Shown in pieces: positions 2,658 through 20,111 of a stretch of DNA of 45,162 nucleotides. How positions within the stretch are numbered: position 1 is the stretch's first letter; every line of letters starts with the position of its first letter. Position numbers and translations under genes: made by a program. The notes below the pieces were generated by a model. The model was not told where the DNA came from and did not search any database. It saw only the letters and a list, made by a program, of their open reading frames with translations. Source of the DNA: Atribacterota bacterium (GTDB taxonomy: Bacteria; Atribacterota; Atribacteria; Atribacterales; Caldatribacteriaceae); NCBI GenBank assembly GCA_039638595.1, contig JBDIWM010000003.1, positions 50,427 through 95,588 on the forward strand, written 5' to 3'.

Positions 2658-3929
2658 TTACAGTTGATCGATATCCGGTACCGTCCCATCGGCTAAACGG
2701 TAGAGCATTTCCCCGGCCCGAGGAACGTAAAGGATGCCCTGGTCTTCTTTTCCGGTGTAGTCTTCGATGCGGATACCACGGTAGTCCATGTAACCCAGGT
2801 TAATGCGCTGACAGAGGTCTTGGGGGATGCTGGTGGCAAGAATGACCTCAATGCGGGGATATTCTTTTCCATCGTGGTATTTGCCGATTCCTTTGACGTG
2901 CGTGGAATGGGCCAGGACCCCCCAGGGGTAGTGTTTGTAGCGGTCCCAGTTAGTGAGGAAAAAGTCCCGCACGTGGTAGCCAATTTCCCGCAAGTATCTG
3001 CCGTGGGTTACCGAAATTTCCCGGATATGAGGAGCGTAGAGAATGATTTTTCCTCCGTTGGTTACCACCGGTTCGAGTTTGTACATTCCCTTTCCTCCTA
3101 CCCAGAGTTCGTTATAGATCTCTGGAATCACCGAGAGTACCGTGTGGAATGGATGGTTTTTCCAGATGATGTTGACCTGGGACGATAAATCCGCAGCTTT
3201 CGACCAGGCTTCTTCAGGGTCGCCAAGGAAGAGTCCACAGGGGTCTTTCCCGGTGACCACAACGGCTAGTTTCATGCTTGGACGGGGCATGAAGCGAGCC
3301 GCCCGGCGGAGGATTTCCCGCACCGGGGTTTCCTTGTGACCGATGATTTTGGGATTGGTGATGAGGGCTGCCAGCCAGTGAAACTGGTCAATGATTTCTG
3401 CACCAGAAATACCGGGGAAGAAATATTTGTACCCTCCGGAAAATCCCACCACTTCGTGAGGGAAAACCGGTCCCACGATCAGGAGTTCGTCATAATCGAG
3501 GATACGGCGGTTCACGGTGACGGGGATGGATTCTTTGAGTAACCCTTTCGAAATGGCTTCTACCTCTTCTTTGGAGATGGTACCAATGTGGAGGAGTTCT
3601 TGGGGGTCATTGTAAACATGGTTGAACACCTCGGTTCCCAGAGTGCGAGCTTCCCCGTAGGTGACTCCCAGATGGTTTTTCAATTCTTCGTCGGTCATGG
3701 GTGGGTGGGTGCCGAGGGCGATGAGGAAATGGAGGGTTTTTGACGGGGGAAGAAGGTCTTCCATGAGCACCGTAAAAATGGTTTTCATGGGAAAGGTCCG
3801 GGTGGCATCGGGGATGATGGCCAAAATCCGCTTTCCCTTGGTGTCGTATCGGGCAATTGCCTCTTTCAGAAAATCCCGGAATTGGTCCGGAGTTAAGGTA
3901 CAGAGAGAAGATTTTTCATAGAGAATCAT
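2658..3929 (-). CDS. LarA-family nickel-dependent hydroxyacid racemase/epimerase (candidate sugar-acid 2-epimerase)
   Basis: This 423-residue protein of the lactate racemase catalytic-subunit superfamily has DATRTFP near residue 41 and GTHPP near 73. H158, K168 and H184 are in the block PHEVVGFSGGYKYFFPGISG and the following helix. Their spacing is exactly that of H174, K184 and H200 in Lactiplantibacillus plantarum LarA, where the lysine carries the nickel-pincer (NPN) cofactor, H200 binds nickel and H174 is a catalytic base. H104 matches the other base. The superfamily includes lactate, malate and phenyllactate racemases and a D-gluconate 2-epimerase. The start overlaps the gnd stop (ATGA), so the two are co-translated, which favours a gluconate-type substrate (inference). 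The cofactor genes larB, larC and larE are not in the window. Confidence 0.85.
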   Translation of the reverse strand: MILYEKSSLCTLTPDQFRDFLKEAIARYDTKGKRILAIIPDATRTFPMKTIFTVLMEDLLPPSKTLHFLIALGTHPPMTDEELKNHLGVTYGEARTLGTEVFNHVYNDPQELLHIGTISKEEVEAISKGLLKESIPVTVNRRILDYDELLIVGPVFPHEVVGFSGGYKYFFPGISGAEIIDQFHWLAALITNPKIIGHKETPVREILRRAARFMPRPSMKLAVVVTGKDPCGLFLGDPEEAWSKAADLSSQVNIIWKNHPFHTVLSVIPEIYNELWVGGKGMYKLEPVVTNGGKIILYAPHIREISVTHGRYLREIGYHVRDFFLTNWDRYKHYPWGVLAHSTHVKGIGKYHDGKEYPRIEVILATSIPQDLCQRINLGYMDYRGIRIEDYTGKEDQGILYVPRAGEMLYRLADGTVPDIDQL

Positions 3930-5341
3930 TCTACTTCACCCTCCCATGTGGTGTGAAACGTTCCCGGTCGGTCGATGCGTTTGTAGGTATGAGCTCCAAA
4001 AAAGTCCCGCTGGGCCTGGAGAAGGTTCGCTGGCAACACGGCGCTGGTCCAGGAGTCGATATAGGCCAAAGCGGCTGATAAAACCGGTACCGGAAGGGAA
4101 CGCTCCAGCGCGATTTTCACGATTTGACGAGCCTGTTTAGCACTTTCTTTGACCCTTTGAATGAACCCACTGGCTGTAAAAAGAAGTAATGGGTTCTCAG
4201 CTAAGGCTTTCTGAATGGCGGTAAGCATCCGCGCCCGGAGAATACACCCGCCTTTCCAGATTCTGGCGATATCCACAGGATTGAGGTGGTACTTCCACTC
4301 TTCCGAAGCCACCTGCAAAAGATGGAATCCTTCACTGAAGGCTACCACCATAGAAAGAAAAAGGGTTTGTCTGAGGGCTTCTCTGGTGTCCGCATCACAA
4401 TGAAGCCTGGCGTCATTTTGACAACCCCAGATTTGGGAAAGGGACACTCTTTTTTCTTTAAAGGAGGAGAGATTGCGGGCAATTACTGACTGGTTGATGA
4501 CTGGAGTTGGTACTCCTAAATCAAAAGCGATCTGGGAGGCCCATTTTCCAGTTCCTTTCTGTTCGGCAGCATCGAGGATGATTTCCACCAGGGGTTTTTT
4601 GGTTGCCGGGTCTTCCACCCCGAGGATTTTTCCAGTGATTTCCACCAGGTACGAGGCTACATCACTTTGGTTCCATTCTTCGAAGATGGACTGGATGGCA
4701 TGGCTTTCAAGACCATAGATTTTACGCAGGATGTCATAAACTTCGGCGATGGCCTGCATCATGGCGTACTCAATGCCGTTGTGGACCATTTTCACAAAAT
4801 GTCCGCTGCCGCCTGGTCCGAGGTAGGTACAGCAGGGTCCATCTTCTACTTGGGCGGCGGCCTTTTCCAGGATTTCCCGCACCAGTTCATACCCTTCTTT
4901 GTTTCCCCCGGGCATGATAGACGGTCCATGTAGTGCACCGTGCTCTCCACCACTGATCCCGGTCCCCAAAAAGAGGAGGCTTCGTTTTTCGGCTTCCTGG
5001 AGCCGCCTTTCGGTATCCTGAAAAAACGAGTTTCCTCCGTCGATGACTAAATCCCCCGGTTCAAGGAGGGGAAAAAGGGTTTCTAAGAATTCATCCACGG
5101 CCTTTCCAGCCTTCACCATAAGCATAACCCGACGGGGTTTCCGGAGCGCTGAGACGAACGCTTCCAGGCTGTAGGTCGGCACAATCGGTTCCCCGTGGAG
5201 TCGGGTGTTTACAAATTCCTGAGTGCGTTCCTGTGTCCGGTTAAAAACGGCTACCTGAAATCCCTTACGGGCGATATTGAGGGCCAGGTTCTGCCCCATC
5301 ACCGCCATGCCAATGATACCAATATCACACAGTGCTTTCAT
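3926..5341 (-). CDS. gnd: 6-phosphogluconate dehydrogenase, decarboxylating
   Basis: This 471-residue protein is of normal family length. It converts 6-phosphogluconate to ribulose 5-phosphate, CO2 and NAD(P)H in the cytoplasm. Visible signatures are the N-terminal Rossmann motif GMAVMGQN with a following FNRT that suits NADP, the substrate-binding ISGGEHGA block near residue 126, and the catalytic Lys and Asn in HFVKMVHNG. Two ATGs lie two codons apart. The second (5341) is chosen because GAGGAGG sits seven bases before it, while it abuts the first (5347). It is the first gene of a two-gene operon with the LarA-family epimerase and is divergent from the UxaE-like operon. Together they suggest oxidation of gluconate-type acids. 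Confidence 0.93.
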   Translation of the reverse strand: MKALCDIGIIGMAVMGQNLALNIARKGFQVAVFNRTQERTQEFVNTRLHGEPIVPTYSLEAFVSALRKPRRVMLMVKAGKAVDEFLETLFPLLEPGDLVIDGGNSFFQDTERRLQEAEKRSLLFLGTGISGGEHGALHGPSIMPGGNKEGYELVREILEKAAAQVEDGPCCTYLGPGGSGHFVKMVHNGIEYAMMQAIAEVYDILRKIYGLESHAIQSIFEEWNQSDVASYLVEITGKILGVEDPATKKPLVEIILDAAEQKGTGKWASQIAFDLGVPTPVINQSVIARNLSSFKEKRVSLSQIWGCQNDARLHCDADTREALRQTLFLSMVVAFSEGFHLLQVASEEWKYHLNPVDIARIWKGGCILRARMLTAIQKALAENPLLLFTASGFIQRVKESAKQARQIVKIALERSLPVPVLSAALAYIDSWTSAVLPANLLQAQRDFFGAHTYKRIDRPGTFHTTWEGEVE

Positions 5342-5362
5342 GAGCATTCCTCCTCAAGAGTG

Positions 5363-5391
5363 ATTATACCTCTTGGGAAAACCGGGGAAAA
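5363..5391 (-). promoter_or_regulatory. Promoter of gnd-larA-like operon
   Basis: On the minus strand a perfect TATAAT (plus-strand 5363-5368) precedes the GAGGAGG ribosome site by eight bases. A weak TTTTCC lies 17 bases further upstream (5386-5391). The transcript would have a very short leader. Confidence 0.55.
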
Positions 5392-5485
5392 TAGGTGGTG
5401 ATTCTGTTTCGCTGTCTCCTTAAAATTTGGTTTTGACCCGATTTCTACCGAGGTAAACCCCCGGTACCCAGTATCCTAAAAAGCC

Positions 5486-5616
5486 TTAAAAAGTGTAAAA
5501 TCATTATGATTAGTGAATTAAAGATAGTTTGTCTCAGAGGACGAGAGGTTTGCGTGCGTTGACTCTGTGGGAAGGATATTATTTCGGTACTATGTGGGTG
5601 TTAAAAAGCGTAAAAT
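5486..5616. repeat. Pair of 16-base direct repeats between divergent sugar-acid operons
   Basis: TTAAAAAGTGTAAAAT at 5486-5501 recurs as TTAAAAAGCGTAAAAT at 5601-5616 (15 of 16 identical, 115 bases apart). They lie in the region of about 300 bases between gnd and the UxaE-like gene, which has no coding potential that I accept. The second copy ends 31 bases before the GTG at 5647. They may be operator sites or the TAAAAT may serve as -10 boxes. No good -35 element is visible. Confidence 0.45.
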
Positions 5617-5646
5617 AGGGAAGGATTTGGAATAGGAGGAATCAAG

Positions 5647-7134
5647 GTGATACAGGAGAAAATTCAAAAAATCGTGCAGAATCGTGAAGCATTTGGAAAA
5701 TCCTTCCGGGTGTATGAAAAAGCGTACCAGATTGCCGATTTTAGGTGTACCTTTTTCCCAGCGAAAAACCACATTGGGTTCTACCTTGTGGTTTGGTCAA
5801 AGGTATCGAACCTTCCTTTCGAAAATCCCTGTTTTTCCCAACTTGATGAAGAAGGTGTCTGCACGGTTTATCCCTTCGATTTGGTTAATTATCGGGCGCT
5901 AACCCAGTTTTTTCCATCTCTTCGTCCGGTCACATTTAACCACCGTCCTTCTTTTGGTTGTGGTGACCGGTTGGGGATGGTTTCGGCAGCCCACCTTAAA
6001 GCGCTGGCAGAATTTCCGGTTTTTCCAGTCATTGCCCAGCAGTCACCGAGGGAATTGGAGAGGACACAACGGACTTTTCAGGATGTCCTTCTGGGAGCGG
6101 TCTGGGGAATTTTGGAAAGTGGATACCAGGGTCCTTTTGGAGCTGATGCCGACCATGTAAAAGAGGAAAAATACCTCCTGGAAGCTCGAAACCTGGGTTT
6201 TTCCATGTATACCCTGGATGTGAGTGAAAACGTGGCTTATTCGGCACTCACTTGGCCAGAACACGAACTTAGCCGACGGTATGAGACACTTACGACAGAG
6301 GAACGGGAAATTTTCAAATATTATGAAGGGAAAAGCCTGAGACTTTCGGAGTCGGTTCGGGTTAATTTCGAAGGGACGAAGCTCCTGCCGCTTGTTTTGG
6401 CCTACCTTCCGGCGATTGAAAGGGTGGAATATCTGTACCATCTCTTGAAAGAAGAGCTATCTTCCTTTGATTTGGAGATCTCCTTAGATGAGGGAGGGAT
6501 ACTTACTTCAAAAGAAGCACACTTTTTTGTGGCTGAAGAACTGCATCGTCGAGGGATTGACTTCCGGAGTTTAGCTCTTCGTTTTCCTGGTGCCTTTGAG
6601 AAGGGGATTGATTATCTGGGTGATCTTCAGGAATTTGCCCAAGCCCTGCGACAACACATGGTAGTGGTGCGAAACATTGGTGGGTATCGTCTGAGTTTAC
6701 ACTCTGGGAGTGATAAATTCAGCGTATACCCGGTGTTCTTCCGGGAAACCGGTGGGATTTTTCATCTTAAAACTTCGGGGACCAGCTGGTTAGAAGCCCT
6801 GATGGTGGTTGCGGAAAAGAATCCGGGACTGTTCCATCGGGTTTACCGCATTGCCTATGAAACCTTTGAAGAAAATTGTCGAGCCTATCAGCTTTCGGTT
6901 AAAAAAGAAACGATTCCAGAGGACTTACGGAACGTGCCAGAAAAGGATTTTCCTCTTCTTCTTCGCGATACCGCAATCCGGCAGTTCTTTCACGTGGCTT
7001 ACGGGTCAATCCTGGGACGAGTCGGACCAGAAATTCGCCAATTCCTCTTTGCGGAAGAAGCTCAACATTATGCGCGAGTATGTGAAAATATAAAAAGACA
7101 CCTTGCGGTTCTATTTGGAAGAGAAAAGGGGTGA
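5647..7134 (+). CDS. uxaE: UxaE-like tagaturonate/fructuronate epimerase family protein
   Basis: This 495-residue protein resembles the tagaturonate epimerase family first described in Thermotoga maritima (TM0440). Recognisable blocks are SFGCGDRLGMVSAAHLKAL near residue 101 and GPFGADADHVKEE near 160. The enzyme interconverts D-tagaturonate and D-fructuronate, linking galacturonate to glucuronate catabolism in the cytoplasm. The GTG start at 5647 has AGGAGG seven bases upstream. Downstream genes overlap it or each other (ECF S component, SDR reductase, FGGY kinase), so one operon is likely. The family assignment comes from remembered motifs and gene context. The exact substrate could be another ketouronate. 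Confidence 0.72.
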   Translation: MIQEKIQKIVQNREAFGKSFRVYEKAYQIADFRCTFFPAKNHIGFYLVVWSKVSNLPFENPCFSQLDEEGVCTVYPFDLVNYRALTQFFPSLRPVTFNHRPSFGCGDRLGMVSAAHLKALAEFPVFPVIAQQSPRELERTQRTFQDVLLGAVWGILESGYQGPFGADADHVKEEKYLLEARNLGFSMYTLDVSENVAYSALTWPEHELSRRYETLTTEEREIFKYYEGKSLRLSESVRVNFEGTKLLPLVLAYLPAIERVEYLYHLLKEELSSFDLEISLDEGGILTSKEAHFFVAEELHRRGIDFRSLALRFPGAFEKGIDYLGDLQEFAQALRQHMVVVRNIGGYRLSLHSGSDKFSVYPVFFRETGGIFHLKTSGTSWLEALMVVAEKNPGLFHRVYRIAYETFEENCRAYQLSVKKETIPEDLRNVPEKDFPLLLRDTAIRQFFHVAYGSILGRVGPEIRQFLFAEEAQHYARVCENIKRHLAVLFGREKG

Positions 7135-7139
7135 ATACA

Positions 7140-7679
7140 ATGCTCACAAGCGAACGGGTTCATCGGAGTGCAGTGGTGCTTACGCGCATTGGTGTGCTTC
7201 TGGCAGTGGGAATTGTACTTCCGGTGGTTTTTCATGGTTTGGGGATTCCGGGACCGATGTTTTTGCCCATGCATTTTCCGGCTTTGTTGGCCGGATTTCT
7301 TCTTCCTTCGGGGAGTGCTTTTGTGGTGGGACTGGTATTACCTTTGGTGAATTTCCTTATTTCTGGAATGCCGCCGTTCCCCGTATTTATTCCCATGATG
7401 GTGGAATTAGGAAGCTATGGGGCTCTGGGAGCATTTTTTACCCGTCGGCTGCGGTTTTCGACCATTGTCGCCCTCATCTTGAGCCTTATTCTGGGACGGG
7501 TTGTTTTTCTCCTTGCCCAGTTTGGGATTTTGGGGCTCCTTTTTGGGCGGAAGGTATCGGTGGTGATGACGTTGCAGAGTCTTTTTGTGACTGCACTTCC
7601 GGGAATTATCATTCAGCTTTTTTTAATTCCCATCCTAGTGAAACGGATTTCTCCAAAGGAGGGTACCAATGAATCTTGA
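7140..7679 (+). CDS. ECF transporter S component (substrate-binding membrane subunit), probably for a sugar acid
   Basis: This protein of about 179 residues has five to six hydrophobic helices. The sequence PGPMFLPMHFPALLAGFLL, the following glycine-rich helix and MPPFPVFIPMMVELGSYG are typical of ECF-type S components that share an energising EcfAA'T module. No EcfA or EcfT gene is in the window, so it would use a module encoded elsewhere (group II arrangement). I prefer the ATG at 7140, which has AAGGGG eight bases upstream. A GTG at 7131 overlapping the uxaE stop is an alternative. The stop overlaps the SDR start by 11 bases. Its position between catabolic genes suggests uptake of an aldonate or uronate (inference). 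Confidence 0.72.
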   Translation: MLTSERVHRSAVVLTRIGVLLAVGIVLPVVFHGLGIPGPMFLPMHFPALLAGFLLPSGSAFVVGLVLPLVNFLISGMPPFPVFIPMMVELGSYGALGAFFTRRLRFSTIVALILSLILGRVVFLLAQFGILGLLFGRKVSVVMTLQSLFVTALPGIIIQLFLIPILVKRISPKEGTNES

Positions 7680-8496
7680 CCTTGAGTCGATGTTTTCGGT
7701 TCGGGGTAAAGTGTTTCTCTTTACCGGTGGCGGAGGAATCCTCGCTTCTACCATTGCTCGGGCTTTGGGGAAGGAAGGAGCAAAAGTGGTGCTCACGGAT
7801 ATTGTCCCGCTCGATGCGCTTCTAGAAGAATTCCGCCAGGAGGCAATCGTGGTTGAGGGATATAGAATGGACGTTCTGCAAAAAGAACACGTGGAGGAAG
7901 TGGTACACAAAGTGTTCGAAAAATTTGGACGCATTGATGCCCTCTTCAATGCGGCTGGGGGAAACATGAAAGAGGCTACTACTTCCTCGGAGGTTTCTTT
8001 TTTTGATTTGCCTGTTGAAGCCCTGCAAAAAGTGGTCAATCTCAACCTTTTCGGAGGGGCAATCATTCCTTCCCAGGTGGTGGCTCGATATATGATCAGG
8101 CAAGAGGAGGGTGGAAGCATCATCAACTTTTCTTCCATGGCTGCCCTTCGACCGCTCACGAGGGTAGTGGGGTATGCGGCCGCTAAAGCTGCGGTGAGCA
8201 ATTTTACCCAGTGGCTGGCAGTGTACATTGCTCGGGAGTTCACTCCCAAGGTTCGGGTGAATGCCCTGGCACCGGGATTTTTTGTCACCAAACAGAACTA
8301 TGCTCTGCTGTACCAAAAGGATGGTCGTTTAACTCCTCGGGGAGAAGCTGTGCTTGCCCATACTCCTTGTGGGAGATTCGGGGTTCCGGAGGATCTTTTG
8401 AGTACGGTCCTGTGGCTCCTATCTCCAGCGTCAAGTTTTGTTACTGGAGTGGTGGTTCCGGTTGATGGAGGGTTCAGTGCCTTTTCCGGGGTGTAG
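7669..8496 (+). CDS. Short-chain dehydrogenase/reductase, fructuronate (mannonate) oxidoreductase-like
   Basis: This is a 275-residue classical SDR. The cofactor motif TGGGGILASTIA is near residue 19. An acidic residue follows the second strand (VLTDIV), which favours NAD(H). NAAGG is near residue 93, the Ser of the catalytic triad is in INFSSMAA, and Tyr/Lys are in VVGYAAAKAA. The C-terminal VDGGF is standard. The subgroup with the loop GGNMKEATTSSEVSFFDLP resembles D-mannonate oxidoreductases, which reduce fructuronate to mannonate. It has a good ribosome site (GGAGGG). Its neighbours are the UxaE-like epimerase and a gluconate-type kinase, an arrangement seen in Thermotoga. A keto-gluconate reductase role is a fair alternative. 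Confidence 0.75.
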   Translation: MNLDLESMFSVRGKVFLFTGGGGILASTIARALGKEGAKVVLTDIVPLDALLEEFRQEAIVVEGYRMDVLQKEHVEEVVHKVFEKFGRIDALFNAAGGNMKEATTSSEVSFFDLPVEALQKVVNLNLFGGAIIPSQVVARYMIRQEEGGSIINFSSMAALRPLTRVVGYAAAKAAVSNFTQWLAVYIAREFTPKVRVNALAPGFFVTKQNYALLYQKDGRLTPRGEAVLAHTPCGRFGVPEDLLSTVLWLLSPASSFVTGVVVPVDGGFSAFSGV

Positions 8497-8499
8497 CTG

Positions 8500-9975
8500 A
8501 TGAAAAAAAACCTTTTTCTGGCGATTGATATCGGTACTTCTTCGTGCAAAGTCTGCGTTTTTCACCGGGAAGGCGAGATGCTCTTTTCCACCAAAAGAGA
8601 TTACAAGACCCATTCTCCCCATCCGGGGTTTGCCGAGCAGAACCCGGAAGAGATTTATCATTGTATTAAAGAGGCGGTAAAGGATGTAACGACTTCTTTT
8701 CGTACTTCTTCTTTTGTAGCCCTCGCCCTTGATACCATGCTCCATAGTTTTCTTCTCGTTGATGGGCACATGCGACCCCTTTATCCTCTTCTCAATTGGA
8801 TGGATACTCGTAGCGCTGGGGAGGTGGAAGCGATGCAAAATGAGTATCATGATTTTCAGTTCTACCAAAAGACCGCTACACCCCTTCATACCATTTTTCA
8901 TCCTCCCCGAATCGCCTGGTTTCAAAAAAAACGGTTTGCACTGTGGGAACGTACGACCAAAATTCTTTCCATCAAAGACTGGGTTCTGGGCCGATTGACC
9001 GGGGTATATTCTTGCGATTTGTCCACCGCTTCCGCCACAGGTCTTGTCGATGTGAGAAAACAGTGCTGGTCGGAGGATCTCCTATCCTGGTTATGTCTTC
9101 CACCGGAGAAATTACCAGAATTGTCTCCACCCGAAAGGGTTGAAACCTTGAAAGAGGGTGACTTTACCCGTGATACCGGTTTACCGTCTGGCATTCCGGT
9201 TGTCTTTGGGGGTGGTGATGGTCCTTTCGCCAATTTGGGAGAAGGGGCTTTCCGGGCAAAAGAAATGGTGGTTACGGTGGGCTCTTCCGGGGCAGTGCGC
9301 ATGTGTGAGCAGAATCCGGTCTTTGACCCCCAGGGACGCAGCTGGTGTTATTACCTTGCGGATGGTATCTGGGTAGGGGGTGGAGCCATCAACAACGGAG
9401 GGATTGTCTATTCCTGGGTGCGAGACCTTTTGGGCGAAAAACTGGATTTTTCCCTTGACATTTACCGGGAAAGGCCGCTTTTTCTTCCCTTTTTGACTGG
9501 CGAACGCAGTCCCCACTGGAATCCCTATGCTCGGGGAATCCTCTTTGGGCTTTCCTATTTTCATACCCCTCAAGCACTCATTCAGTCGGCTCTGGAAGGG
9601 GTGGCCTTCCGGGTGCGTTCCATTTATGACCTGCTTTCTCAAGTCATGGGTATGCCGCATCGAGTGATCCTCAACGGGGGTTTTGCCACCACCGATCACG
9701 GAAAAAGAGTCCTCTGCGATGTCCTGGGAGTCCCGGTGGAAGTGAGCCTCTACCCTTCGGCGTCTGCCAAAGGGGCTTTTCTCCTTTCTCTCAAAGCCCT
9801 CGGTGAAGTGGAACACCTTACAGACCTTCCGTCTTCCTTGTTTCCGGAAAACCCCCACCTCGAGCCAATTGAAGAACACAAAACATTTTACGCAAGACTC
9901 TATCAACTCTATGAAAAGGTGTATACTCAGAACGCCACACTCTTTAAGGAATTTGTAAAGTTGGGACTGGCGTAA
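8500..9975 (+). CDS. gntK: FGGY-family carbohydrate kinase, gluconokinase-like
   Basis: This 491-residue protein is of normal length for FGGY kinases. The first ATPase domain begins FLAIDIGTSSCKVCVF. The second domain contains GGGDGPFANLGEGA near residue 238 and the late LNGGFATTDHGKRVLCDVLG block with the adenine-binding glycine motif. The sequence and context match gluconate kinases of Thermotoga type (TM0443), which make 6-phosphogluconate, the substrate of the gnd product encoded divergently 3 kb away. The start is three bases after the SDR stop. Xylulokinase is the nearest alternative, but the locus favours gluconate. Confidence 0.78.
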   Translation: MKKNLFLAIDIGTSSCKVCVFHREGEMLFSTKRDYKTHSPHPGFAEQNPEEIYHCIKEAVKDVTTSFRTSSFVALALDTMLHSFLLVDGHMRPLYPLLNWMDTRSAGEVEAMQNEYHDFQFYQKTATPLHTIFHPPRIAWFQKKRFALWERTTKILSIKDWVLGRLTGVYSCDLSTASATGLVDVRKQCWSEDLLSWLCLPPEKLPELSPPERVETLKEGDFTRDTGLPSGIPVVFGGGDGPFANLGEGAFRAKEMVVTVGSSGAVRMCEQNPVFDPQGRSWCYYLADGIWVGGGAINNGGIVYSWVRDLLGEKLDFSLDIYRERPLFLPFLTGERSPHWNPYARGILFGLSYFHTPQALIQSALEGVAFRVRSIYDLLSQVMGMPHRVILNGGFATTDHGKRVLCDVLGVPVEVSLYPSASAKGAFLLSLKALGEVEHLTDLPSSLFPENPHLEPIEEHKTFYARLYQLYEKVYTQNATLFKEFVKLGLA

Positions 9976-10302: not shown

Positions 10303-11541
10303 TTATGTATGTTTGAATTTCAACACTCCAAATTTTGCTCGGGTTTCCTGCAGAATTTGGGCGTACTCTTTTTCGTAGACCACACACCCGGCATTTTGCT
10401 GACGGATGAGGAGTTCCATGCAGGTATCGCAGAGGGTGCACCAGTTAATTTCGTCGAATTTTCCTTCCCTTAGTTTCTTGGGAAGGTACGGGTCGGCAAA
10501 AGATTGCCGTCCAATAGCCACCATGTCAGTGACGCCTTCGCTGATATTTTTATCACCCCAGTAAAGAAGAGAGCTCTTTTCTCGTTCCACCCCTAAGAAG
10601 TTGTTTTTTCCGTCGCGAAAAATGGAGTAGGCTGAACCCATGGTGACTACTTCTGGATAAAGCATCTTTCGGGCTTCCTTCTGGAAAAGATGGTGGAGAT
10701 ACGCATAGTCGGGAATCCGTTTATCAGGATGAGCTAAAGCGATGGTGAGTGACGGGTTTCCAGCGGAGACCAGGATAAAGTTTGCCCCACGTTCTTTAAG
10801 ACCATGCAAAAGGTCCAGAGGTTCGGTAAGGTCCATGATGGCTGTATCTGGTCCAGCACAGCCCTGTCCTCCGGGAATACCTTCCCACATGGTCACTTTG
10901 GAGCCGACCAGAAAATCGGGGTCAGGGATTTCCTTACGGATTCGTTCATACAGGTCAAAAGCAAATTGGCGACGCTTTTCCCATGGACCACCATACTTCC
11001 AGGGACGGTCATTGTAGGGGCGGAGGACCTGGGTGCCAAAGTATCCATGGCAGAGCTTAAGGTCCACACCATCGGCCCCGGCATTATAGGCAATTTTTGC
11101 ACCTAACACGAACTGGTCCATAATTTTGTCCACGTCTTCCTCGCTTAAGAGATCTCCTCCCATACCGGGAAGCGGTTTTACGCAGACTCTCCGGGAAAAA
11201 TCAGGACTGCTGAGTTCTCCGGCATGGGTCAACTGCCAGATAAAGATGGGTTTGGGATTGACGCTTTTCATTTCCTGGGTGAATTTTTGCAACGCTTTCT
11301 CGTTGTGGGGCATGACGCTTAACTGGTTTAGACGCGCCCGACTTTCGTAGCTCACGGTGATAGCCTCAAGAAAGATGACCCCGGCATCACCTTCAAAAAG
11401 CCGGCGGTACCTCCGATAGGTCTTGGGACTGGGGTTGCCTTCTTCATCAGAATCGCAGCATTCCATGGCATTGATCACGAAGCGATTAGTGGCCACTTTC
11501 TTACCAATGGTAATCGGAGTGAAAAGCAAATTTTGGTCCAT
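10303..11541 (-). CDS. NADH:flavin oxidoreductase (Old Yellow Enzyme family) with C-terminal Fe-S cysteine motif
   Basis: This 412-residue TIM-barrel flavoprotein contains the OYE motif HGYFGTQVLRPYNDR near residue 165 (substrate/FMN pocket) and the FMN-phosphate region VAIGRQSFADPYL near 341. Four cysteines at 368, 371, 374 and 386 (CTLCDTC then C) match the 4Fe-4S cluster ligands of 2,4-dienoyl-CoA reductase and trimethylamine dehydrogenase. The usual C-terminal FAD/NAD domain of those enzymes is missing, so an external electron donor is likely. The start ATG at 11541 has AAAGGAGG seven bases before it. It lies about 70 bases downstream of a PAS-LuxR regulator on the same strand, which probably controls it. 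Confidence 0.85.
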   Translation of the reverse strand: MDQNLLFTPITIGKKVATNRFVINAMECCDSDEEGNPSPKTYRRYRRLFEGDAGVIFLEAITVSYESRARLNQLSVMPHNEKALQKFTQEMKSVNPKPIFIWQLTHAGELSSPDFSRRVCVKPLPGMGGDLLSEEDVDKIMDQFVLGAKIAYNAGADGVDLKLCHGYFGTQVLRPYNDRPWKYGGPWEKRRQFAFDLYERIRKEIPDPDFLVGSKVTMWEGIPGGQGCAGPDTAIMDLTEPLDLLHGLKERGANFILVSAGNPSLTIALAHPDKRIPDYAYLHHLFQKEARKMLYPEVVTMGSAYSIFRDGKNNFLGVEREKSSLLYWGDKNISEGVTDMVAIGRQSFADPYLPKKLREGKFDEINWCTLCDTCMELLIRQQNAGCVVYEKEYAQILQETRAKFGVLKFKHT

Positions 11542-11612
11542 CCGTTTGCCTCCTTTCGGTTTACGCTCTTCCCTCATTATCCTCTTCGTTCTTTTTCTTG
11601 AGAACCACTGCA

Positions 11613-12482
11613 TTACCCCTGAAAATCACCAGGGAAACCACTGGAGGCAAGATAGGTCAAAAGGTAAGACTGGAGATTCACCTTGATTTTTCGGATGCCC
11701 AATTTTTCTCGAATCTGGCCGCGGTGGAACTCAACCGCCTTAAGCGATAGAGACAATTCTTCGGCGATCTCCTTGGTGCTTTTCCCCTGGGCAATGAGAA
11801 GAGCGATCTGGAACTCTCGCGGGGTGAGGTAAGTGAGGAGAGAGAAGTAGCGATTTTTCCTCCAGGTGATCTCATTTTGTATCGGGGAAAAGAAGGATTC
11901 CATTATCTTGAGAGGTTCTTTCTGAGGTTGATTGGGAAGGATTTCTTGGAGGAACTGGAGCGGTGATTTGAGGGTATGTCTGCAAGTGATGTTTATACGG
12001 GTTTTTTGCCAGTCTTCATAAATTTGCCGGGCCTTTCCAACAATGGTTCTTAAGGCTTCGACTTCCTGTTCCAGAGCTGCAAGAACAAGCTGGTAGAATC
12101 TGGTTTCGGTAATATCCTGGACGTATTCCATAACCCCCACTATGTTTCTGTCTCCATCAAAAATGGGGAAAGCCAGAAGTTTCTGCCATCCCTGCACTGT
12201 GCCATCTTTTCCGTGGTAGGGCACGATACCACTTTGAGCTTTTCCACGGGAAAGCGTGGTTCGAGTAGGACACCAGGGACAGGGGTTTTTGCGATTATGG
12301 TATACGCGGTAACACTTTTCTTTTGGGGTAAAAACAGTGTGGGCGTACCACGATCGCATGGTACGGTTAGCGTTAATCACAGAGAGGCTTGTATCAAGCA
12401 CGCTCACGCCGTCTGGGAGTTCGTCCCAGGCCTCGATCTCGGGATAGTTCTTGAAGCACCAGTCCCCAATCTGTTTTTCCAT
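11613..12482 (-). CDS. PAS-domain LuxR-type transcriptional regulator
   Basis: This is a 289-residue protein. The N-terminal PAS-like sensor (about residues 15-128) contains C57 and the CPWC pair C68/C71 after EKCYRVYHNRKNP, which could bind a metal, haem or act as a redox switch. It is followed by a coiled linker and a C-terminal LuxR/GerE helix-turn-helix (about residues 222-280: YLTPREFQIALLIAQG and the recognition helix SLKAVEFHRGQI). It should bind DNA in the cytoplasm in response to a ligand or redox signal. The start at 12482 is chosen over an upstream GTG because an extended -10 (TGCTATACT) overlaps the upstream extension. The downstream OYE gene is the obvious target. Confidence 0.82.
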   Translation of the reverse strand: MEKQIGDWCFKNYPEIEAWDELPDGVSVLDTSLSVINANRTMRSWYAHTVFTPKEKCYRVYHNRKNPCPWCPTRTTLSRGKAQSGIVPYHGKDGTVQGWQKLLAFPIFDGDRNIVGVMEYVQDITETRFYQLVLAALEQEVEALRTIVGKARQIYEDWQKTRINITCRHTLKSPLQFLQEILPNQPQKEPLKIMESFFSPIQNEITWRKNRYFSLLTYLTPREFQIALLIAQGKSTKEIAEELSLSLKAVEFHRGQIREKLGIRKIKVNLQSYLLTYLASSGFPGDFQG

Positions 12483-12489
12483 GACGCAT

Positions 12490-12499
12490 TCAGTATAGC
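12490..12499 (-). promoter_or_regulatory. Extended -10 promoter of the PAS-LuxR gene
   Basis: On the minus strand TGC-TATACT lies nine bases before the ATG at 12482, giving a leader of only two or three bases. No good -35 is visible, as expected for extended -10 promoters. Confidence 0.45.
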
Positions 12500-12840
12500 A
12501 GAAGTCACACAAAATCGGAAATCTTTGGAAAGGTAAAAGGAATAGGAGAGCGATCTCGGCAAGGATTTTTCCTGGTCACGGCATCCTTTTCCGGGAACGA
12601 TTTGTATAAGTAATCCTTAGTGCATGCCAGCGGGATGATAACGTGGTCAGTGATCGTGTGGGTCATGGCCCCGGATAGGAGAAGTTCATAAAAACACGAT
12701 GCCCAAAGCTGGTTTTCGAGAAGGTGCGATATTTGTTTCTTTGTGGTGTGGGATAAAATTATAGATGGAGACTTTAAGGAGGTTACAGGTATACAACCAA
12801 CCTTGACCATGGAATTTCAGTTCCGTGTCTTGGAGCGAAA
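12500..12840. other. Intergenic region without a supported gene
   Basis: A minus-strand frame at 12505-12810 has no ribosome site and resembles nothing I know. TAAAAT at 12754-12759 with a weak TTTGTT 16 bases upstream may be the promoter of the MNT gene at 12841. Confidence 0.4.

Positions 12841-14727: not shown

Positions 14728-14728
<1 letters not shown>
13616..14728 (-). CDS. Gfo/Idh/MocA-family oxidoreductase
   Basis: This 370-residue cytoplasmic NAD(P)-dependent dehydrogenase has the N-terminal Rossmann motif VGIVGFGFIGRIHA. The conserved CDKPLALNLEEA block near residue 104 carries the catalytic-type lysine. The C-terminal alpha/beta domain starts at GKIGRVF and includes GGGSLWDLGSHLVDL, whose Asp/His are typical active-site residues. 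The family oxidises sugars, inositols or sugar derivatives, and the substrate cannot be read from sequence. The ATG at 14728 overlaps the serS stop, so it is the last gene of the T-box operon and is coupled to serS. A GTG one codon earlier is possible. Why it sits with serS is unclear. Confidence 0.85.
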
Positions 14729-17488
<2,760 letters not shown>

Positions 17489-19878: not shown

Positions 19879-19908
19879 AAAAAACTCTCGCCCAGGGGCG
19901 AGAGTTTT
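19879..19908 (-). terminator. T-box regulated intrinsic terminator
   Basis: On the minus strand AAAACTCTCGCC pairs with GGCGAGAGTTTT around a CCTG loop and is followed by a run of T. Its 5' arm overlaps the region after the antiterminator, as in standard T-box leaders. Confidence 0.9.
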
Positions 19909-20111
19909 CCCGCGGTGCCACCCTCATTCAATGGGTTCACCCATCCTCATTAGGCTAACGCCTTCGGCGGAAGTAGCTACTCTCCTTTCACCACTTCGGC
20001 TCCAGGACGGATTCAAAGGAGAGAAAAACCGGTTTACACCTTCATCCGGATCTCTGTGTATTTCTCTTTCCTTTTACTATTTCCCTTCTTCGCCTTTATC
20101 AATTATTGAAT
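19879..20111 (-). promoter_or_regulatory. T-box riboswitch, serine specifier (UCC)
   Basis: The leader reads on the minus strand. The T-box core AGGGTGGCACCGCGG occupies plus-strand 19910-19924. The AGTA motif of stem I and the distal loop GGTGTAAACCGG are present. GAA-TCC-G-TCCTGGAGC on the 3' side of stem I places the specifier codon UCC at 20009-20011 (serine). The UGGC bulge can pair with a GCCA tRNA end, and serine tRNAs have a G discriminator. Uncharged tRNA-Ser(GGA) should favour the antiterminator over the terminator at 19879-19908. It controls the downstream genes from 19860 leftward. Confidence 0.93.

Follow-up and report, generated by a model that had tools for sequence, protein, structure and literature searches.

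An Atribacterota bacterium carries a LarA-type protein of the gluconate 2-epimerase kind next to the genes of a sugar-acid pathway, in a genome in which a search detected none of larB, larC and larE, the genes for synthesis of the nickel-pincer nucleotide (NPN). Our overall reading, to which we assign a probability of about 0.5, is that the locus encodes a Thermotoga-type route with a functional GntE2-type epimerase, and that NPN or a late precursor is obtained from neighbouring cells. NPN is one of only a few organometallic cofactors. Intact LarA proteins across a clade without the NPN pathway would mean either that microbes exchange NPN or that it is manufactured by unknown enzymes. The locus would also carry the Thermotoga gluconate-epimerase route into Atribacterota.

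Organization of the sugar-acid locus

The locus lies in a window of 45,162 nucleotides, i.e., the whole stretch of DNA that was analysed. A preliminary description had listed six products encoded in two divergent operons, and all six open reading frames were located and matched to the families proposed (Table 1).

Table 1. Features of the sugar-acid locus and its conserved neighbours, in window coordinates
Feature	Position	Strand	Length and basis
gntE-like LarA-superfamily protein, predicted NPN-dependent D-mannonate/D-gluconate 2-epimerase	2658..3929	-	423 aa; Pfam Lar_N, 4NAR match, tree, AF2 model
gnd, 6-phosphogluconate dehydrogenase (decarboxylating)	3926..5347	-	NF006765 638 bits and TIGR00873 605 bits, both above cut-off
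Intergenic region between the divergent operons, probably with the promoters of both	5348..5646		299 nt; from sequence
uxaE, tagaturonate/fructuronate epimerase	5647..7134	+	PF16257 472 bits; PDB 9lhw, E 7e-93
ECF transporter S component	7131..7679	+	PF12822 44.0 bits; AF2 fold
uxaD-like SDR, D-mannonate oxidoreductase (fructuronate reductase)	7669..8496	+	NF006132 328 bits vs cut-off 281
FGGY kinase, probable gluconokinase gntK	8500..9975	+	TIGR01314 304 bits, below cut-off 648; PDB 3gbt
OYE-like flavin oxidoreductase, neighbour kept in genus	10303..11613	-	PF00724; also adjoins G017 locus L112
PAS-LuxR regulator, neighbour kept in genus	11613..12512	-	PF00196, PF08448; also adjoins L112

The gnd and larA genes overlap by 4 nt, as do uxaE and the S-component gene. 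The S-component and SDR genes overlap by 11 nt, and the SDR gene is separated from gntK by a gap of 3 nt. The locus probably consists of two divergent operons of co-translated genes. A promoter scan of the region between them gave a score barely over chance. The order LuxR-OYE / gntK-SDR-S-uxaE was seen again in the sole other genome of the genus (G017), and the gnd-larA pairing was found throughout Atribacterota, so the arrangement is not due to chance. Given this phylum-wide conservation, the combination of the epimerase with gnd is an already existing one and not new. The genes of the OYE-like flavoprotein and the PAS-LuxR regulator (10303-12512) share one base, and both stand beside the operon in the second genome as well; the regulator may control the sugar-acid locus. 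A tRNA-Ser(TGA) gene occupies 2560-2648, and about 10 nt separate its end from the 3' end of larA.

The enzymes other than the LarA-type protein fit a sugar-acid pathway to different degrees. Gnd passes the cut-offs of both of its family models, and the SDR exceeds that of the D-mannonate oxidoreductase model. In a PDB search the closest solved structures to UxaE were the tagaturonate/fructuronate epimerases 9lhw and 6il9. The top family model of the kinase was a gluconokinase model, with a score under its cut-off, and the closest solved structure in the PDB search was a gluconate kinase.

An Atribacterota version of the Thermotoga pathway

The galacturonate operon of Thermotoga maritima has the order aldH-pelB-gnd-uxaRED-gntEK (Rodionov 2013, PMC3750489). 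As in that operon, gnd, uxaE, an SDR gene (uxaD), a LarA-type gntE and an FGGY gntK are clustered here, and the flow is predicted to lead to 6-phosphogluconate. However, the genes form two divergent operons here, one of them with an ECF S component, and no GntR-type uxaR is among these genes; the genome also has no uxaC, uxuA or larBCE, whereas T. maritima has larBCE. Judged from its genes, the pathway is of the known Thermotoga type, in an Atribacterota version. Fructuronate, or tagaturonate by way of UxaE, would be reduced to D-mannonate by the SDR. D-Mannonate would then be converted to D-gluconate by the LarA-type GntE, and D-gluconate phosphorylated to 6-phosphogluconate by the FGGY kinase, from which Gnd would produce ribulose-5-phosphate, CO2 and NADPH. 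We infer both the substrate and the direction of the reactions from sequence.

The uronate isomerase UxaC had no match in this genome or in G017, with the T. maritima control scoring, and a genome search found UxuA absent from the genus. Because both are absent, no entry point into the route is known for hexuronates. The degradation of uronates that had been proposed for this locus is therefore only partly borne out: the gene set equals the galacturonate/gluconate set of T. maritima, but galacturonate and glucuronate would have to enter without UxaC. Conversion of galacturonate and glucuronate has been reported for KduI of Escherichia coli (PMC3578941). Since mannonate also has no exit through a mannonate dehydratase, the GntE step becomes more important. 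In two other Atribacterota genomes the uxaC frames are broken by stops or fragmented (G039:C38 and G044:C45), which suggests decay of the uronate isomerase in some relatives.

The LarA-type protein groups with hexonate 2-epimerases

The genome carries a single LarA gene. Its product matches the Lar_N profile (PF09861) with 93.3 bits against a cut-off of 23.3, and its best PDB match is 4NAR, the GntE2 protein of T. maritima (E 1.6e-69; 36% identity). In a maximum-likelihood tree the protein is sister to 4NAR, and a branch of length 2.04 with 100/100 support separates them from LarA and Mar2. The AlphaFold (AF2) model (pLDDT 89) aligned to 4NAR with a TM-score of 0.85 in a fold search.

Residues H158, K168 and H184 align with H174, K184 and H200 of Lactobacillus plantarum LarA at identical spacings of 10 and 16 residues, confirming what the preliminary description had noticed. 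More broadly, D41, R44, H75, H158, K168, H184 and K280 are invariant and are the equivalents of D72, R75, H108, H174, K184, H200 and K298. In the predicted mechanism, C2 would be transiently oxidized by NPN, with K168 and H184 holding the cofactor and H75 and H158 serving as acid/base. The protein also has Glu-Val directly after H158 and Trp after the nickel-binding H184. An EV/S loop together with this Trp is the signature of the GntE or hexonate 2-epimerase group, LarAH18-20 (PMC7583248). The NCBIfam hexonate equivalog NF052594 was not passed (174.9 bits against a cut-off of 500), but this model is non-discriminating, because the characterized GntE2 fails the cut-off too (191.6 bits for 4NAR).

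The protein thus shares its superfamily, NPN-binding residues and their spacing with the lactate racemase LarA of L. plantarum but differs in having only about 20% identity, Glu-Val in place of the Phe-Phe loop, and a position in a separate clade. It resembles GntE2 (LarAH20, 4NAR; Desguin 2020, PMC7583248) in fold, NPN and catalytic residues, and hexonate signature. However, GntE2 is a demonstrated D-gluconate 2-epimerase whose activity needs NPN (PMC7583248), whereas the window protein, a predicted epimerase, falls in a sister clade (31-38% identity to 4NAR). By phylogeny, PDB search and modelled fold, which agree with one another, the protein groups with the hexonate (gluconate) 2-epimerases, far from the lactate and malate racemases. 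This was the outcome on which the earlier assignment had depended. The accompanying suggestion of a mannonate-to-gluconate conversion gains support as the established role of the T. maritima relative.

Proteins of this sister clade occur elsewhere. A protein encoded on a replicon of the actinomycete Embleya sp. NBC_00888 (NZ_CP108785.1, L132) is 46% identical to the window protein, so the clade reaches beyond Atribacterota. One Atribacterota genome with a complete contig (G024) encodes two GntE proteins of the window type (L067 and L089), the second of which is more distant, at 47% identity to the window protein, and lies away from gnd.

Absence of larB, larC and larE

Searches of the genome, which is 97% complete, gave no match for larC, only weak hits below the cut-off for larE, and nothing over the cut-off for larB, the single weak hit being PurE beside PurK; the T. 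maritima control scored for all three. The three genes were likewise undetected in its only relative within the genus. Absence of larBCE had been named beforehand as evidence against a nickel epimerase. It does not make the LarA protein a non-epimerase, however, given the strict conservation of the active site.

We then surveyed 50 Atribacterota genomes for larB, larC, larE and LarA. The three lar genes co-occur: all were found in 29 of the 50 genomes, none in 18 and some in 3 (G010, G012 and G018), these last being incomplete genomes from which single lar genes are missing. The 18 genomes without larBCE are the two of the genus, G025, five from family f6 and 10/10 from family f7. Because larB, larC and larE vanish together from the same genomes, the pattern looks like loss of a pathway. 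LarA is kept in 16 of these 18 genomes, with one to five homologs each. In family f7 (G040-G049) a genome may carry as many as five LarA homologs, which are of several types, and larB, larC or larE was seen in 0/10 assemblies. The GntE proteins of this family are 51-53% identical to T. maritima GntE2, and its LarA proteins of the malate racemase type exceed the NCBIfam equivalog cut-off.

The NPN-binding and catalytic residues D72, R75, H108, H174, K184 and H200 (L. plantarum numbering) were unchanged in every LarA sequence read, from genomes with and without larBCE, and the K298 equivalent was invariant in an alignment of 30 GntE sequences. Between the two members of the genus, dN/dS was 0.07 for larA, lower than the 0.093 for gnd. 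Relaxed selection on larA after loss of larBCE was considered and rejected, as the larA/gnd divergence ratios in the genus fell within the range of larBCE-containing genomes. By these sequence measures, the LarA genes of the lineages without larBCE are not decaying.

Could the absence be an artefact of assembly or binning? Every genome without larBCE is a multi-contig, fragmented assembly and none is closed, and single lar genes are missing from the incomplete genomes named above, but three genes that lie at separate loci in many relatives are absent concordantly from both members of the genus and from all ten assemblies of family f7, some rated 96-100% complete. By a rough estimate, incompleteness alone would produce this with a probability of ~1e-11 in family f7 and of 0.003 to 1e-5 in the genus. 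We regard an artefact as unlikely.

Possible sources of the cofactor

The orphan LarA most likely reflects either scavenging of the cofactor or its synthesis by an unknown route. The NPN pathway would have been lost in this genus and, independently, in other Atribacterota lineages, so that the cofactor would not be produced through LarB, LarE and LarC in these cells, and NPN or a late precursor would most likely be acquired from neighbouring cells. We infer both the continued use of NPN and its external source from the sequence evidence above. An outside supply appears to be the simplest reading that fits, on the model of bacteria that use scavenged pyrroloquinoline quinone (PQQ). In E. coli, which has apo-quinoproteins and the PQQ importer PqqU, an enzyme is likewise retained without the genes for biosynthesis of its cofactor, and PQQ comes from the environment via PqqU (PMC12124388); the likeness to NPN is an analogy only. 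We tentatively propose, at somewhat below even odds, that NPN auxotrophs exist in several lineages of Atribacterota, among them this genus and an entire family: cells that retain at least one NPN enzyme and take up NPN, or a late precursor of it, that other microbes have produced. If true, this implies that an uptake system for NPN awaits discovery and that microbes share a pool of an organometallic cofactor.

No NPN importer was found, and the LarA neighbourhoods of the genomes without larBCE contained no common extra gene as a candidate. In family f7, PFK, HAD and PfkB genes come after gntE. In the literature on NPN enzymes that we covered, we found neither a description of NPN scavenging or of an NPN importer nor a discussion of LarA without larBCE. 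What has been discussed is the opposite case, in which larBCE occurs and larA does not (PMC11796402).

Alternatively, NPN might still be synthesized in these cells, with non-homologous enzymes taking the place of LarB, LarE and LarC. The maintained active sites and purifying selection, and the retention of several LarA types together in family f7, would be explained in this way. However, simultaneous replacement of three such unusual enzymes is improbable, the concerted loss of all three genes from the same genomes resembles loss of a pathway, and no candidate gene was found near LarA. We therefore regard in-cell synthesis as unlikely. It seems equally doubtful that the LarA proteins have abandoned NPN for a different cofactor or a different activity: the lysine that tethers NPN, the nickel-binding histidine and the equivalents of the phosphate-binding Asp and Arg are unchanged in all the larBCE-lacking genomes read, and some of the proteins pass the cut-off for NPN-dependent malate racemases, even though the missing NPN genes would fit such a change and other reactions are suspected for LarA-fold proteins in which residues are altered (PMC7583248).

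The ECF S component

The S component passes the PF12822 cut-off of 30.7 bits. Its AF2 model has six helices, and the nearest known folds are the S components TmRibU, ThiT and FolT, with weak E-values; a PDB search with the sequence gave no useful match. The genome encodes a shared EcfA-EcfA'-EcfT module (G000:C49, L121), beside rplQ and truA, the gene names being assigned by sequence and order.

Uptake of an aldonate or uronate through this ECF transporter had been proposed. The S-component gene overlaps uxaE and the SDR gene in translation and is retained in the genus, and the energizing module named above is present, both of which are consistent with import of a sugar acid for the pathway. 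However, the gene is located in a sugar-acid operon only in this genus. Its orthologs in families f1, f3 and f4 are solitary genes, and in the seven other genomes with readable context no uxaE, SDR gene, gntK or gnd lies alongside. Both the family and the fold of the protein are like those of vitamin S components. The proposed uptake is thus left unsupported, and we consider it quite improbable. As a general explanation, an S component that imports NPN to offset the loss of larBCE was rejected, because the orthologs occur in genomes with larBCE and were not found in family f7; in this genus alone, the S component may be an NPN importer. A search for a riboswitch as a hint to the substrate gave no match at or above the Rfam gathering score in nine S-component loci.

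Other features of the window

A T-box leader at 19891-20099 on the minus strand lies upstream of genes for a class-V aminotransferase and a 2-hydroxyacid dehydrogenase, and probably marks serine-responsive serine biosynthesis. Seryl-tRNA synthetase is encoded near it, at 14728-16014. A single open reading frame at 1233-1997 fuses a nucleotidyltransferase with a HEPN domain.
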